Positions 27,155 through 39,990 of a DNA stretch of 39,990 nt are shown here, in pieces (within the stretch, counting starts at the first letter, position 1; each line of letters starts with the position of its first letter). The position numbers were made by a program, and so were the translations under genes. Source of the stretch: Gammaproteobacteria bacterium (GTDB lineage: Bacteria; Pseudomonadota; Gammaproteobacteria; Steroidobacterales; Woeseiaceae). The stretch is from positions 1 to 39,990 of the forward strand of contig JAACFM010000013.1 in assembly GCA_009937445.1 (NCBI GenBank). The letters are read 5' to 3'. The notes beneath the pieces are model-generated. The model saw nothing but the letters and a program-made list of their open reading frames with translations. It was not told where the DNA came from and made no database searches.

Positions 27155-27271
27155 TGACCAGCGTGTCCTGCAGCTTGGTCAATAACTCTAATTTTTTGCC
27201 CTGATTGGGTCTGTGACGCAGATTCAGTTTTGAAAATTATTTTGGGAATTTTTTCCCTTTTTTCTTACCCT

Positions 27272-27311
27272 GTAGGAGCGGCTTTATGCCCTTTGGGTGC
27301 CCAGGCCGCGA
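27272..27311 (+). repeat. REP element, long-loop class, copy 1
   Basis: 40 bases with the GTAGGAGCGGC head and GGCCGCGA tail of the window's REPs, but a larger centre (TTTATGCCCTTTGGGTGCC) that can fold as CCC-TTT-GGG. It matches the copy at 36713-36752 at 37 of 40 positions. It is preceded by CCCT, as in the right-hand REPs of the inverted pairs. It lies between the start of the GGDEF/EAL gene and the end of a lipoprotein gene. Confidence 0.85.
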
Positions 27312-27330
27312 CCGTCCCCGCACCCACCCC

Positions 27331-34722: not shown

Positions 34723-34745
34723 GTAGGAGCGGCCCAAGGCCGCGA
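34723..34745 (+). repeat. REP element, left copy beside RAYT gene
   Basis: A 23-base imperfect palindrome. GTAG at the foot, then GGAGCGGCC, a three-base loop CAA and GGCCGC, then GA. It faces an inverted partner at 35300-35323 across the RAYT gene. Preceding CCG and following AA make it the same subtype as the left half of the REPIN at 39164. It begins 11 bases after glrR and may act as its transcript end. Confidence 0.9.
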
Positions 34746-34826
34746 ATCACCTTCAACCACCAAATCTCAACACTTAGCCCCCAATAACGCGAATCATCCT
34801 CTCACCCCGCCAGTCATCATTAACTG

Positions 34827-35279
34827 ATGAAAGGCCATTACCAACTTCGCAAAGGTCGCTGCAGTCTCCAGAATCAGATCTACCACGTATCTACAGCGAC
34901 CCACGGGTGGCAACCATTGTTCCAAAGTTTTCGATGTGGACGGGCTGTCGTCGATTGCATGCGGCATGAACACGACGCTGGACACGTTAAGTCGTTAGCG
35001 TTCGTGGTGATGCCCGATCACCTTCACTGGTTGTTTTCACTAACGGGATCCCGGTCGCTGAGTGAATCCATCAAAAATGTGAAAGCCTTTTCAGCTCGTC
35101 GTATCAACGAGATCCTGAGATCGAAGGGCGCGATTTGGCAGCCTGCATTCTATGACCGGGCGATACGCCGAGAAGAAGACCTGGAAGGAGTCGCACGATA
35201 CATCGTAGCGAACCCCCTGCGCGCGGGTATTGTGCGGACTATCAAGGAGTATCCCTTGTGGGATGCTAATTGGGTCTGA
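34827..35279 (+). CDS. REP-associated tyrosine transposase (RAYT, Y1/HUH family)
   Basis: 150 residues of the IS200/IS605-like Y1 transposase family. QIYHVSTATHG opens the fold. The HUH metal motif is HLH in VVMPDHLHWLFS, and the catalytic Tyr is probably that in GVARYIVANPLRAGIV. The C-terminal YPLWDANWV is the usual RAYT ending. RAYTs are single-copy, cut and bind single-stranded REP hairpins with a GTAG foot, and are thought to spread REP and REPIN elements. Here the gene lies between inverted REPs (34723 and 35323), with no second IS gene and no visible target duplication. Both motifs are intact, so it is likely functional. No strong ribosome site is seen before ATG 34827. Confidence 0.92.
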   Translation: MKGHYQLRKGRCSLQNQIYHVSTATHGWQPLFQSFRCGRAVVDCMRHEHDAGHVKSLAFVVMPDHLHWLFSLTGSRSLSESIKNVKAFSARRINEILRSKGAIWQPAFYDRAIRREEDLEGVARYIVANPLRAGIVRTIKEYPLWDANWV

Positions 35280-35299
35280 TTGGTTTGCGTCGGGGGCTG

Positions 35300-35323
35300 T
35301 CGCGGCCTTGGGGCCGCTCCTAC
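35300..35323 (-). repeat. REP element, right copy beside RAYT gene (overlaps prsR stop)
   Basis: A 24-base REP on the minus strand: GTAG, GGAGCGGCC, a slightly longer centre (CCAA) and GGCCGCGA. It has the CCCT lead and CGCGAC tail also seen in the right half of the REPIN at 39197-39220. Its foot GTAG supplies the TAG stop of the PrsR-type gene (35320-35322). Confidence 0.9.
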
Positions 35324-36702
35324 AGGGATGTTTTCTTTGAGTACGAGTCGGCGCTCAAACCGTATTTGTTCAGGAGGTCGTACAAGGTCGGCCGGGTTAC
35401 GCCCAGCAGGTCAGCCGCCTTGGAAATGTTGCCGTAGCATTTGGTGAGTGCCACGCGGATCGCTTTTGTTTCAGCCTGTTGTCGCACCTCACGAAGATTT
35501 AGCAACTCTTCTACCGAACCCCCGTCGGCGATGCCGAGGTCAGCTGCCGTCAGCATTTTGCCGTCCGTCATGATGACAGCACCTTTGATCTTGTTCTCGA
35601 GCTCGCGGACATTGCCGGGCCAGGCATAGGCCTCGATAGCCGTGACAGCATCGTCGGCAAAACCGTTGATCGCTCTTTTTTGCAGTTTGGCGTATTTGGT
35701 GAGTAAGGTGCGGGCCAGTATCAGGCGACCTTCCTCTCGATCCCGCAGCGGTGGAATGTTGATCGTGATCTCACTGACGCGGTAGTACAGGTCCTCGCGA
35801 AACAGCCCCTCCTTGATCAGAATCTCCGGACTCTGATTGGTGGCGCAGACGACGCGCACGTCGACCGGAATTTCCTGCCGGCCACCCACGCGTTCTATGA
35901 CACGTTCCTGCAGGAACCGCAGCATTTTTGCTTGCAGTGCGATCGGCATGTCGCCGATTTCATCAAGGAACAAGGTGCCGCCGTTGGCCAGCTCAACTTT
36001 ACCAATCGCTTGCTTGTGAGCACCTGTGAACGCGCCTTTCTCGTGACCAAACAACTCGGACTCAAGCAGGTTTTCAGGAATCGCCGCGCAGTTAATCGCA
36101 ACGAAGTTTTGCTCGGCGCGCGGACTCAGTCGATGCAGCGCCCGGGAGAGCAGTTCCTTACCGGTGCCACTCTCACCGAGGAGCAACGTCGTTACGTCCG
36201 TCGGCGCGACTTTTTCGATCATGCGACAAACGGCGAGCATGGCCGCGCTCGCCGCGACGATACCGTCGAGTGGTGACTCGTTGACCTGGCTCTGCAGTCT
36301 CCGATTTTCGGCTTCGAGTTCGGAAATATTGAACGCACGATTGACAAGCAGTTTTAGGGTATCGGTGTCGACGGGTTTTTCATAAAAATCGTAGGCGCCC
36401 TGCGCTACAGCTGTGAGCGCGTTTTGCTGATCGCCATTGCCCGTGACGACGATGACTTTTGTATGCGGTGCAATTCTGACCGTCTCGGCCAGCGTGGCGA
36501 GTCCCTCTTCGACGCCCTCCGGTTTCGGCGGCAATCCAAGATCCTGCAACACGACGGCCGGCTCGTGGCGACGCAGCTCAGCAATAGCCGCCTCGCGATC
36601 TTCGGCCGTGTACACGTCGTAATCCTCAAAACACCATTTGAGCTGTTTTAGGAGACCGGGGTCGTCTTCGACGATAAGAAGTTTTCTTGCGTGCTCGCTC
36701 AT
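35320..36702 (-). CDS. prsR: PrsR-type sigma-54 response regulator (PEP-CTERM-box family)
   Basis: 460 residues. The receiver has Asp54 in VVLQDLGLPPKPEGVEEGL, whose long loop after the Asp is typical of the PEP-CTERM-box regulator family. The AAA+ domain carries GESGTGKE (176-183), GAFTGA (223-228) and LFLDEIGDMP, with the family phrase MIEKVAPTDVTTLLLGES before Walker A. A Fis-type helix-turn-helix ends it (CYGNISKAADLLGVTRPTL). PrsR proteins, with the kinase PrsK, control exopolysaccharide/exosortase loci; neither kinase nor exosortase is visible here. ATG 36702 is chosen; the frame continues upstream only through a REP. The C-terminal codons and stop run into the right REP of the RAYT locus. 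Confidence 0.88.
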   Translation of the reverse strand: MSEHARKLLIVEDDPGLLKQLKWCFEDYDVYTAEDREAAIAELRRHEPAVVLQDLGLPPKPEGVEEGLATLAETVRIAPHTKVIVVTGNGDQQNALTAVAQGAYDFYEKPVDTDTLKLLVNRAFNISELEAENRRLQSQVNESPLDGIVAASAAMLAVCRMIEKVAPTDVTTLLLGESGTGKELLSRALHRLSPRAEQNFVAINCAAIPENLLESELFGHEKGAFTGAHKQAIGKVELANGGTLFLDEIGDMPIALQAKMLRFLQERVIERVGGRQEIPVDVRVVCATNQSPEILIKEGLFREDLYYRVSEITINIPPLRDREEGRLILARTLLTKYAKLQKRAINGFADDAVTAIEAYAWPGNVRELENKIKGAVIMTDGKMLTAADLGIADGGSVEELLNLREVRQQAETKAIRVALTKCYGNISKAADLLGVTRPTLYDLLNKYGLSADSYSKKTSL

Positions 36703-36712
36703 AGGTTCAACT

Positions 36713-36752
36713 GTAGGATCGGCTTTATGCCCTTTGGGTGCCATGGCCGCGA
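36713..36752 (+). repeat. REP element, long-loop class, copy 2
   Basis: 40 bases matching the copy at 27272-27311 at 37 positions; differences are GGATCGG for GGAGCGG and CATGG for CCAGG. It lies directly ahead of the PrsR-type gene, within its 5' leader or promoter. The first change breaks one pair of the outer stem, so this copy may be decaying. Confidence 0.82.
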
Positions 36753-36837
36753 CAATACCGCAATGGTGCCACGAAGCGCCACGCGTTGGCAGTAGGTGGT
36801 TCACACTAGCGAGCGTGCATGGGTCTTGGATGTGCAC

Positions 36838-36907: not shown

Positions 36908-36956
36908 ATTTCGATTAGTGTGGCTACATTCTAGGGAAAACAACGCTTTAACGATC

Positions 36957-39161
36957 ATGAAACCAACCATCGCACGACTCGCAGGGGCTTCAACCGTCCT
37001 TTTTCTCATTCCTCTGATGGCATCGGCTCAAGAGAGCAGAGATAACTCGGAAGTCATTGATACTGTTACGATTATCGGCAAACGTACTGATGTGGCGGAC
37101 ATACCCGGTTCGGCACATGTCGTGGACGCGGAAGAATTGGCCGAGTTTGCCCAGTCTGACATTTTGCGAGTTTTACGCACGGTTCCCGGGGTCTACGTCC
37201 AGGAAGAAGAAGGATTTGGCCTGCGGCCAAATATCGGCATTCGGGGTTCGGGGCTCGATCGTAGCGCCCGAATCGCACTCCTCGAGGACGGCGTGCTGAT
37301 CGCTCCGGCCCCTTATGCCGCCTCTTCTGCGTATTATTTTCCGACACAACGTCGTATGAGTGCGGTTGAGGTGCTGAAGGGCCCTGCTTCAGTTGCGGTT
37401 GGCCCACGCACCACCGGCGGTGCGATGAACATGATCTCGACACCGATTCCCGATGCGATGGGCGCCAACGCTGATCTGCGTATCAGCGACAACAGCACGA
37501 CGGATGCACACGTCAACGTCGGCAATCGCGGCGAACGTTTCAGCTGGTTGCTCGAAACCGTGCAGGCGAAAAGCGACGGCTTCAAGACCATTGAAGGACC
37601 CGTCGGTGGCGATAGCGGTTTTGATGTCCAGGACTACGTCGCCAAGTTGCAACTCGACAACGACCCAACGAGTCCGATTTACCAGAGCTTGCGAGTGAAG
37701 CTCGGCTACACCGATCAGCTCTCCAACGAAACCTACCTCGGGCTTACAGATGCCGATTTCGCAGTGGCTCCCTACAATCGTTACGCAGCATCGGCAAACG
37801 ACAAGTTCGTTAGTGAGCATGAGCAATACCAGGCAACCTACGTCATCGACGCCGACAAGAACTGGCGCGGTGAGATCACCGCCTACCGCAATGACTTCTC
37901 CCGAAACTGGTACAAGGTGCAGTCGGTCGGCGGCGAAAGTACCAGCAACGTTCTCGCGGACCCAATCACCTACGCGACCGAGTACGGCTACGTGACCGGC
38001 GAGACAAGTGCGGACGACGCGATCCAGATACGCGCAAACAACCGCGACTACTACTCGCAAGGCGTGCAGGCCAAGATCGAATGGGATCTCGGATTCGGCG
38101 ACACCGACGTATCGCTGAACACCGGCATTCGGGTACACAAGGATGAGGAAGATCGTTTTCAGCATCAGGACGGCTACCGCATGCAAGACGGAAGCTTGAT
38201 TCTCACAACCGCGGCGGCCGGCGGCTCACAAACCAATCGAGTATCGGACGCGAACGTCACGTCCTATTTTGTCGATTCAGAGATTCGAACCGGAGACTGG
38301 ATCTTCACACCGGGGTTACGTTTCGAAGACATCGACATGACCCGTTACGACTATTCAACCGCGGACCCGACGCGCGCACTGGGACCGACAAGAGTCCGTA
38401 GCAATTCAGTGCAGGTATTTATTCCCGGCGCCGGTGCGTTGTATCGCCTGAACCAGGAATGGCGACTGCTGGCCGGCGTTCACAAAGGCTTTAATCCGCC
38501 GGGACCGGGCAGCTCGGCAGAAGAAGAGTCCAGCATTAATTTCGAAGCCGGTTTTCGCTTCGACAACGACGCGTTGCGCGTCGAATCAATCTACTTCAGA
38601 AATGATTACGACAACCTCGTCGGCACGGTGACAGATTCGACCGGCGGTGGCGGTGACATCGGCGATCAGTTCGACGGCGGCGAAGTACTCGTCAGCGGAC
38701 TGGAGCTGAGCGGCGATTACAGTTTCGGATTCGGCTCGTTCGATGTTCCTGTTGCTCTGCAATACACCTGGACGAACGAAGCGGAATTCAAAAACGCCTT
38801 TGACTCAGGGTTCGATCCCTGGGGCGAAGTGGCAGTGGGCGACGCCCTGCCCTACATCCCGGAGCATCAATTGCGTCTGAGCGCCGGGCTGCAAAACGAA
38901 CACTTCCGCATAAACATGGCTGCGAACTACGTGGGCAAGATGCGTACAAAGGCAGGACAAGGCGCGTATGACCCGCTGGAGACTGTGGAATCACACGTCA
39001 TGTGGGATGCGATCGCGACCTGGGAATTCACGGAGAGCTTGTCAACCTACATTAAGGTCGACAACCTGTTCGACGAGACCTACATCGCCTCGCGCAGACC
39101 GTCGGGTGTTCGTCCGGGGCTGCCGCGAACAGCGTACGTAGGATTTACGTTCCGACTCTGA
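36957..39161 (+). CDS. TonB-dependent outer-membrane receptor, FecA-like
   Basis: A 734-residue outer-membrane importer. Signal peptide 1-24 (LFLIPLMASA, then QES). TonB box DTVTIIG at 35-41. The plug domain has RTVPGVYVQEEEGFGLRPNI, then GIRGSG, ALLEDGVLIAPAPYAAS and VEVLKGPASVAVGPRTTGGA, very close to the ferric-dicitrate receptor FecA. The beta-barrel ends in AYVGFTFRL with the C-terminal aromatic-x-x-L pattern. The N-terminal signalling domain of FecA is absent and there is no fecIR pair, so transcriptional signalling is not expected. A Fur-like site lies upstream. ATG 36957 is chosen over GTG 36918, which would precede the signal peptide. Ferric citrate or another ferric carboxylate is a reasonable guess. 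Confidence 0.93.
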   Translation: MKPTIARLAGASTVLFLIPLMASAQESRDNSEVIDTVTIIGKRTDVADIPGSAHVVDAEELAEFAQSDILRVLRTVPGVYVQEEEGFGLRPNIGIRGSGLDRSARIALLEDGVLIAPAPYAASSAYYFPTQRRMSAVEVLKGPASVAVGPRTTGGAMNMISTPIPDAMGANADLRISDNSTTDAHVNVGNRGERFSWLLETVQAKSDGFKTIEGPVGGDSGFDVQDYVAKLQLDNDPTSPIYQSLRVKLGYTDQLSNETYLGLTDADFAVAPYNRYAASANDKFVSEHEQYQATYVIDADKNWRGEITAYRNDFSRNWYKVQSVGGESTSNVLADPITYATEYGYVTGETSADDAIQIRANNRDYYSQGVQAKIEWDLGFGDTDVSLNTGIRVHKDEEDRFQHQDGYRMQDGSLILTTAAAGGSQTNRVSDANVTSYFVDSEIRTGDWIFTPGLRFEDIDMTRYDYSTADPTRALGPTRVRSNSVQVFIPGAGALYRLNQEWRLLAGVHKGFNPPGPGSSAEEESSINFEAGFRFDNDALRVESIYFRNDYDNLVGTVTDSTGGGGDIGDQFDGGEVLVSGLELSGDYSFGFGSFDVPVALQYTWTNEAEFKNAFDSGFDPWGEVAVGDALPYIPEHQLRLSAGLQNEHFRINMAANYVGKMRTKAGQGAYDPLETVESHVMWDAIATWEFTESLSTYIKVDNLFDETYIASRRPSGVRPGLPRTAYVGFTFRL

Positions 39162-39163
39162 CC

Positions 39164-39220
39164 GTAGGAGCGGCCCAAGGCCGCGAAATGAAAAGGTCGC
39201 GGCCTTGGGGCCGCTCCTAC
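39164..39220. repeat. REPIN: inverted pair of REPs between convergent genes
   Basis: Left REP 39164-39186 (plus) and right REP 39197-39220 (minus) are inverted copies separated by 10 bases (AATGAAAAGG). Together they can form one long hairpin of over 20 pairs. It starts two bases after the receptor stop and its right foot contains the stop of the SDR gene, so it fills the whole gap and may end transcripts from both sides. The halves match those that flank the RAYT gene. Confidence 0.92.
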
Positions 39221-39990
39221 AGGGTTCTTGAGCTCGCGACGATGCCACCGTCAACCGGTATCACCGCGCCTGATACGTAGGCGCCCGCCTTCGATGCCAG
39301 ATAGATTGCAGCGCCCGCCATGTCCGCCGGTTCGCCCCAGCGTTTCAGCGGCACGCTCGCGGTAATCTGATCACCAAATGCCGCTTTAACGCCCGCCGTC
39401 ATCTTGCTCGGGAACGGACCGGGCGCAATCGCATTGGCTGTGATAAAGCGATCTGCAAGGTGAGATGCCAGCGTGCGCGTCAGGTGATGGACAGCCGCTT
39501 TGCTGGGGCCGTAGGAGTACGTGCCCATATTGCTGACGTTGAGCCCGTCGATCGAGCCTACATTGATGATTCGAGCGGGGTCTTCGGCCGACGCTGAGGC
39601 CTCGAGTAACGGCAGCAAGGCCTGCGTCAAAAAGAACGGGCCCTTGACGTTGATGTTCATGACCTTATCCCAGGCCGCCTCCGGAAACTCCTCTATCGGG
39701 GCGCCCCAGGTGGCACCCGCATTGTTGACGAGAATATCCAGTTGGCCCTCGCGCGATTTGATCTCGTCGGCCAGCGCCTTAATACCTGCGGAGGTCGAGA
39801 GGTCGGCGGGAATCGAGATGCACTCGCCCTGTTCCGATAATCTCGCAGCCGTGGCATCGCAGGCGTCTGCTTTGCGCGCGGAGATATAGGTCTTGACACC
39901 GTTCGCGACAAAGCCTGCAGCGATCATCTCGCCGATACCCCGCGAACCACCCGTTACCAGAGCGACTTTGCCGCTCACATCGAATAAATT
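39217..39990 (-). CDS. Short-chain dehydrogenase/reductase, RhlG/3-ketoacyl-reductase-like (5' end probably outside)
   Basis: A classical SDR. The NAD(P) motif TGGSRGIG, NNAG, INVGSIDGL (catalytic Ser region) and YSYGPSKAAVHHL (catalytic Tyr and Lys of YxxxK) are present. NAIAPGPFPSKMT after the active site is typical of RhlG-like reductases acting on 3-ketoacyl substrates. GTG 39978 could start a 253-residue protein, but the frame is open to the edge and encodes NLFDVSGKVALVTGG, the usual SDR beginning, so the true start is probably just outside. The C-terminal Leu codon and TAG stop lie in the REPIN. The substrate is unproven. Confidence 0.85.
   Translation of the reverse strand, partial: NLFDVSGKVALVTGGSRGIGEMIAAGFVANGVKTYISARKADACDATAARLSEQGECISIPADLSTSAGIKALADEIKSREGQLDILVNNAGATWGAPIEEFPEAAWDKVMNINVKGPFFLTQALLPLLEASASAEDPARIINVGSIDGLNVSNMGTYSYGPSKAAVHHLTRTLASHLADRFITANAIAPGPFPSKMTAGVKAAFGDQITASVPLKRWGEPADMAGAAIYLASKAGAYVSGAVIPVDGGIVASSRTL

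Follow-up and report, generated by a model that had tools for sequence, protein, structure and literature searches.

REPs are very common bacterial repeats, and both their persistence and their siting behind genes call for explanation. The described systems closest to the one considered here consist of one RAYT (REP-associated tyrosine transposase) gene flanked by opposed REPs, together with inverted REP pairs (Nunvar 2010, PMC2817692; Bertels and Rainey 2011, PMC3116915), and Table 1 of PMC2817692 lists GTAGGAGCG-type repeats from Xanthomonas and P. putida W619. According to the available text of PMC8266576, RAYT enzymes cut at CT, and GTAG can serve as a guide that selects this CT; the term "stop codon" has no occurrence in the main text of that article. 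That the termini of GTAG REPs "often provide" TAG stop codons was stated by Di Nocera, De Gregorio, and Rocco (2013, PMC3733652); in its available text, additional files aside, no tally of such stops was found, nor any test of frame, comparison of orthologues, or empty site. Neither a count, a frame test, nor a mechanism for stops in GTAG feet was found in the available texts of the literature searched. The REPs of E. coli also occur near stop codons, within 15 nt, and the effect described in the available text of PMC12306157 is on the translation of the upstream gene, with no mention there of a REP-supplied stop.

We analysed a stretch of 39,990 nucleotides (the window), which is contig C71 of G000, a 3.29-Mb draft assembly of 175 contigs. 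Like the RAYT/REPIN systems, it has one RAYT gene flanked by opposed REPs, as well as inverted REP pairs; unlike those systems, as they are presented in the available parts of PMC2817692 and PMC3116915, the copy number in G000 is fairly low (43 exact sites of GTAGGAGCGGC and 28 of CTGTAGGAG, some of the latter being also among the former). Stop-providing REPs are known in kind. To this we add an estimate of how large the effect is, evidence that the proteins are mostly unaltered, an empty site, and a reading of the junction CT/G TAG (the slash marks the insertion point), for which we propose a coding meaning. Relative to the available text of Di Nocera 2013, the present data also add a strong dependence of these foot stops on the genome.

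REPs and gene ends in the window

The REPs of G000 are short palindromes capped at one end by GTAG (the foot), and they form a dispersed multicopy family, the reversed GTAGGAGCGGC pattern having six sites in the assembly. Inverted pairs form REPINs, as between the two convergent genes near the end of the window (Table 1) and in 46-bp elements of the relative G020. The earlier note had claimed that the SDR gene ends AGA ACC CTG TAG, with its TAG in the right GTAG foot of the REPIN, and that an independent minus-strand gene ends in the same way; both statements were confirmed from the sequence. The SDR open reading frame, the N-terminus of which lies near the contig end, closes with TCA AGA ACC CTG TAG (TAG at 39219-39217), and the plus strand at this junction reads ...GCTCCTACAGGGTTCTTGAG.... 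On the other side of the REPIN, the TonB-dependent receptor gene has its own TGA (39159-39161), 2 nt ahead of the left foot. The second gene is that of the response regulator, which ends AAA ACA TCC CTG TAG with the TAG in a REP foot. Its TIGR02915 profile begins at residue 53, and the true start is therefore probably downstream of the listed start. A REP-like sequence (36711-36753, 93% like 27270-27312) within the first codons of the listed frame is probably situated in the 5' region of the regulator gene, the true start being downstream.

Table 1. Repeats and genes considered in the window.
Feature	Coordinates	Strand	Remarks
REPIN	39164..39220	.	57 bp foot to foot; fills gap of two convergent genes
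Left REP of REPIN	39164-39187		GTAG foot on + strand
Right REP of REPIN	39196-39220		GTAG foot on minus strand (39220-39217)
SDR oxidoreductase gene	39217..39978	-	Pfam adh_short_C2, E 1.5e-53
TonB-dependent receptor gene	36918..39161	+	Convergent neighbour of SDR gene
REP	35299..35323	-	GTAG foot 35323-35320 contains response regulator stop codon
Sigma-54 response regulator gene, PEP-CTERM-box response regulator family	35320..36837	-	TIGR02915, residues 53-494
RAYT gene	34827..35279	+	NF047646, 139.9 bits vs cut-off 80
REP on other side of RAYT gene	34723..34746	+	
REP with CCCTGTAG foot	27268..27312	+	Not a gene end; internal comparison

The regulator and RAYT genes lie approximately 4 kb from the SDR REPIN. 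The RAYT gene, bracketed by REPs of opposite orientation, was the sole Y1_Tnp match (E up to 0.001) in the assembly, which is approximately 90% complete, and its translation contains HLH and YIVANP stretches, which we take to be typical of such transposases. The sequence CCCTGTAG occurs three times in the window against 0.49 expected, a count of three being reached in one of 100 shuffles, and all three copies are REP feet. At the copy in 27268-27275, the preceding frame is open for only 13 codons and no gene ends there. The SDR and regulator cases represent one REP family, and the RAYT encoded nearby is its likely transposase.

Foot stops are frequent and frame-specific in some genomes

The GTAGGAGCGGC pattern leaves the bases before the foot free and is independent of CT. 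When open reading frames were scored by a codon model for which 130 long frames served as the training set (so that the gene calls are not curated annotation), the TAG of the foot was the stop codon of a coding-like frame at 13 of the 43 sites in G000, one of which (L011) lacked the simple palindrome end used as the REP test. At four further sites, the stop was made of TA and the G of the foot. The remaining sites had stops scattered over other offsets, no gene facing the foot, or read-through, the last at two of the 43 (a dnaQ-like gene with the repeat in a linker, and a site without REP structure). The earlier note had predicted a genome-wide excess of genes whose stop codon is the TAG of a REP foot, and such an excess was present.

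In the offset counts for G000, G020, G013, and the other taxa, repeated contexts and any foot preceded by <200 nt of DNA were removed. The G000 set is slightly different here: GTAGGAGCGGC is present in 37 of the 43 feet (12 of them foot stops), and the others came partly from a CT-containing search. Foot stops made up 14 of these 43 feet, compared with 25 of 1,034 other GTAG tetramers in the same DNA (Fisher p = 2e-11). For the relatives G020 and G013 and the mixed taxa below, the patterns likewise left the bases ahead of the foot free. Foot stops numbered 12 among 30 feet in G020 (taken from the first 30 of its 103 sites) and 11 among 30 in G013 (first 30 of 32 sites), and the Luteimonas genome G040 had 15 among 28 feet (drawn from the first 30 of 52). 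The spike was weak in mixed taxa, with 14 of 196 feet among the matches listed versus 135 of 3,693 other GTAG tetramers, a twofold difference (p = 0.017), and in Pseudomonas, the loci of which formed part of that scan and had two foot stops in 48 feet among the matches listed.

Apart from the foot TAG, no single offset held more than five stops within a set (G000, G020, G013, and the other taxa among the matches listed), and offsets -20 to -3 held 0.2 to 0.9 feet each versus 11 to 14 at the foot TAG (Poisson P < 1e-11 against neighbouring offsets in each of the four sets; CT-pattern sites of G023, G020, and G014 were excluded). The excess was also specific to one frame, in line with the prediction: in the five sets pooled, 66 feet ended a gene in the TAG frame and 12 were read through in the other two, where chance would give 1:2 (p = 1e-20). 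The contrary outcome named in the earlier note, a lack of excess of in-frame REP stops, was therefore not seen. As a control, 59 GTGG feet of a P. putida genome (of 76 sites) were taken: none was open in the foot frame, the two remaining frames gave four read-throughs, and one foot had a stop within 17 nt. This control does not separate the two types of foot, the GTAG feet of the Pseudomonas loci themselves giving the low count above; the mixed loci offered 18 GTGG feet, too small a number.

Read-through of a REP was observed as such in the dnaQ-like gene of G000 (L013 and L071; contig C48, second REP, from position 1501 of L013), in which the repeat in the linker is translated in frame. REPs inside replication and repair genes have been reported (PMC3733652, available text).

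Protein ends are mostly unchanged and the TAG appears generally to come from the repeat

The foot-ended proteins, as judged from their sequences, presumably include those of hslU, crp, aspS, purF, and rnhA, among others. Fifteen foot-ended genes of G000 were compared with 68 orthologs not ended by a foot, their stops lying outside GTAGGAG (some of them still carry a REP in another part of the spacer, G014 at the SDR gene being one), after orthologs with <58% identity, an alignment ending >30 residues early, or no stop in the stretch were dropped; three of 18 foot-ended genes (L024, L037, and L049) were without such an ortholog. Protein length was identical to that in G000 in 48 of the 68. Eight orthologs were shorter by one residue, four longer by one, three shorter by five, and five longer by 3 to 9, the three shorter by five belonging to an lspA-like gene, at which the G000 protein is the longer. 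The protein ends thus compared are mostly unchanged by foot stops. The proposal of the earlier note that insertion at gene ends is nearly harmless agrees with these unchanged ends, but together with random insertion it fails to explain why the stop is so strongly favoured over the first bases behind it. In Luteimonas, 56 orthologs of 14 G040 genes were compared without filtering for feet (at least one follows GTAGGAGC), those with <50% identity being dropped and gene L415 having none. Equal length was found in 22, whereas 24 were longer and 10 shorter; by this comparison, some tails have been cut and conserved ends are kept exactly.

The stops of these 56 orthologs were TGA in 35, TAG in 13, and TAA in eight. 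In the home genus, TAG ended 29 of the 68 orthologs without a foot stop; among 242 comparison ends from the fetched loci, mostly of relatives but including some G000 loci, it ended 90, a similar share. The corresponding numbers for G-TAG were 13 of 68 and 24 of 242, not a clear increase (gene-level interval, 0.08-0.36), and both TAG and G-TAG were raised in the orthologs relative to ordinary gene ends of G000 (38 and 6 of 177, respectively). As far as the ortholog comparisons reach, the TAG appears generally to be supplied by the repeat.

By its sequence in four genomes, the rnhA-dnaQ junction is the cleanest case of a repeat-donated stop inserted after CT. The empty site in G012 and G020 (L493 and L358) is GAACT/ATGAGAC, and the junction in relatives reads GAACTATGAGAC, in which the TGA of rnhA overlaps the ATG of dnaQ. 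The filled site in G014 and G000 is GAACT(GTAG...)ATGAGAC, with the repeat in parentheses, so that rnhA now terminates GAA CTG TAG and the TAG of the repeat replaces the displaced TGA. The SDR gene of the window is different in this respect: its orthologs in G014, G002, and G006, the three whose stop carries no foot, all end SSRTL with (C/T)TG TAG. Because the TAG stands at the same residue in all of them, the SDR stop may be native and older than the repeat, and the SDR case is therefore not evidence of donation.

In the rpoS-like gene L113 of G014, the protein ends LDW, one residue past the LD of its orthologs, which looks like an entry of GTAG into a TGA stop (TG/G TAG), and joining the flanks restores GAT TGA.

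Tight junctions and dependence on the repeat

Among 33 junctions that lack a foot stop, 15 had a spacer of ≤10 nt between the genes, and the spacers of the remainder measured 15 to 387 nt, some with other palindromes. Gene names here are our assignments from the sequences: presumed ogt-like and PNPOx-like genes are separated by -6 to -4 nt, presumed crp and rpe by 0 nt in G021, and presumed rpoS and a DUF498-like gene by -4 nt in G002. In REP-rich species, some REPINs occupy the whole gap and provide the stops of both flanking genes with their two feet, namely six 46-bp REPINs in G020 and elements of 20 and 29 bp in G014.

When the flanks of 48 foot-ended REPIN cases were joined across the repeat (CT-pattern sites of G023, G020, and G014 included, and some REPINs counted at both ends), a stop followed within one codon in two cases and within three codons in nine, with a median run-on of 20.5 codons. 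Both cases in which the stop was restored at once are rpoS-like (L113 and L106), and in them the native TGA returns. By this in silico removal, most joined flanks no longer contain the native stop, and the repeat is now needed there. Simple insertion into a native stop was considered for the REPINs and rejected on the same count; with a stop regained at once in only two of 48, most cases require that the native stop was replaced or subsequently lost.

The earlier note had also proposed that a built-in stop favours retention of the repeat at gene ends. Seventeen genes with foot-type ends and 15 others were entered in a comparison of G000 with G014, two being without a G014 ortholog; L025 (no G014 ortholog), L074, and L052, L054, and L055 (stop in a decayed foot 11 nt upstream) were omitted from the count. 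A REP foot was present in G014 at 14 of 16 gene ends where the G000 foot is the stop versus 6 of 14 where it is not (p = 0.019). Recounts gave 14 of 16 versus 7 of 15 with L074 (p = 0.023), 15 of 19 versus 7 of 15 with L074, L052, L054, and L055 (p = 0.075), and 15 of 16 versus 10 of 15 when decayed repeats were judged by eye (p = 0.083). The foot itself served as the stop in G014 at 12 of 16 versus 5 of 14 gene ends (p = 0.063), the latter five being genes whose REP is not the stop in G000. Better retention of foot stops is therefore suggested by the sequences of this one species pair, but the other countings leave p at 0.02 to 0.08.

Proposed insertion after CT and alternative explanations

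The account that we consider moderately probable is that a GTAG REPIN inserts after the CT of a last codon to give CTG TAG, by which the protein end is kept and the repeat becomes the stop codon. The repeat would belong to a GTAG-type REPIN family mobilised by the RAYT gene situated 4 kb from it, which we infer to be active; by analogy with other RAYT systems, GTAG would act as the guide and the putative transposase would cut after CT, with the new copy reading ...CT/GTAGGAGC.... The cleavage at CT adjoining a GTAG guide described in the available text on TnpA-REP biochemistry (PMC8266576) matches the CT/GTAG seen at gene ends. Where CT forms the first two bases of the last codon, the junction would be CTG TAG, or leucine and stop, which would preserve the protein end and let the repeat take over as the stop codon. 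An insertion in either of the remaining phases would let translation continue into the repeat; copies of this sort are rarely seen and would have been removed by selection. Where junctions are so tight that a gene end overlaps the next stop or start, the built-in TAG would allow the copy to survive, and once the native stop was lost, clean removal would no longer be available and the repeat would stay longer.

In keeping with insertion after CT, 38 of the 68 orthologs have leucine as the last residue, compared with 38 among 242 other gene ends, although six genes account for 36 of those 38 orthologs. Codons other than CTG precede five of 12 foot stops in the CT-independent G000 set, and CT is absent before the foot in 28 of the 48 REPIN cases; feet without CT would be accounted for if the element is asymmetric and needs CT at one end only. 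The last codon is CTN in only 10 of 177 ordinary gene ends of G000, and neutral insertion alone therefore cannot place a third of the feet on stops. Insertion after CT accounts only in part for the placement of feet on the stop itself instead of in the bases that follow.

One unlikely alternative is that the REP lands just past the stop and that small deletions then take away the native stop together with the spacer, so that the last codon finally fuses to the foot, as an end state of compaction. It would fit the five of 14 genes with a non-stop REP in G000 that use the orthologous REP as a stop in G014, the many joined flanks without a native stop, the frequent spacers of ≤10 nt, and the many G040 proteins that are shorter than their orthologs. 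However, the state before capture, with the stop abutting the foot at offset -3, was found at none of 299 feet (those of other taxa among the matches listed) and at none of the 28 in G040, offsets -6 to 0 were empty at all 196 feet of other taxa among the matches listed, and rnhA-dnaQ looks like a clean insertion with nothing lost. The empty offset -3 argues against such deletions as the sole cause. Positive selection for a hairpin right behind the stop, through translation control or protection of the mRNA 3' end, is quite improbable. REPs within 15 nt of the stop are said to lower translation in E. coli (cited in PMC12306157, available text), but a benefit of this kind needs neither single-base precision nor one reading frame, and the sparse occupation of offsets -20 to -3 next to the spike at the foot TAG speaks against it.

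That the transposase instead prefers an existing (CT)GTAG, so that genes with a native TAG are struck and the TAG is their own, is rather improbable too. The SDR orthologs favour it, as does crp, which ends CTG TAG without this REP in G014, G010, and G023, and the frequency of G-TAG in the orthologs points the same way. Against it, the gene-level interval for G-TAG spans the background of the loci, TGA or TAA ends the orthologs of rnhA (4 of 5), an hisI-like gene (7 of 9), and aspS (5 of 6), as well as 43 of the 56 orthologs in the G040 comparison, and the LDW TAG of rpoS in G014, where its orthologs have LD TGA or LD TAG, looks as if GTAG had entered a TGA. A native GTAG as the general target was rejected, the G-TAG excess not being clear and the rnhA empty site contradicting it. 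Chance overlap or a gene-calling artefact, in which REPs are simply common at 3' ends and some of their TAGs fall in frame, could draw on the uncurated gene calls, the two foot stops in 48 feet of Pseudomonas, and the merely twofold excess in mixed taxa (both among the matches listed), but it is very improbable given the spike in each of the four sets and the many foot-ended proteins that look conserved, with ends kept in relatives.

Building on insertion after CT, we tentatively suggest that the transposition code (CT and GTAG) coincides with leucine and stop, so that REPs may enter last codons or overlapping gene ends without a change in the protein and then become the only stop, sometimes for both convergent genes. 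If true, this stop-codon addiction would help to explain the long persistence of REPs and their crowding at 3' ends in compact genomes. If a third to half of the feet in some genomes are indispensable stops, harmless arrival and harmful departure would partly explain the siting and persistence of REPs. The idea of stop donation also predicts where REPs can or cannot be lost, and its consequence for annotation is that quite a few genes of such genomes terminate inside a mobile element.

Other repeats at gene ends

The REPs of G000 and G014 share many gene ends, and their palindrome arms mostly differ (GGCC type in G000 and GCGC type in G014), which suggests repeated insertion or replacement in place. 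The crp-rpe junction (L040 and L120-L138) carries REPs in G000, G020, G016, G013, and G015 and other long palindromes in G010 and G023, which may make the region behind the crp stop a hot spot for small elements. Tandem feet and head-to-tail REPs occur in G000 at L009, L025, L033, and L052 (e.g., GTAGGAGCGGCCCTGTAGGAGC) and are consistent with insertion beside the CT that precedes an existing foot. In G023 (L080-L093), a further GTAGGAGCG family, GTAGGAGCGCCCCCAGGGCGCGAAGCGA, has the stop of the upstream gene approximately 114-179 nt before the foot at seven sites, an arrangement that may represent a gene end adjoining a larger element.
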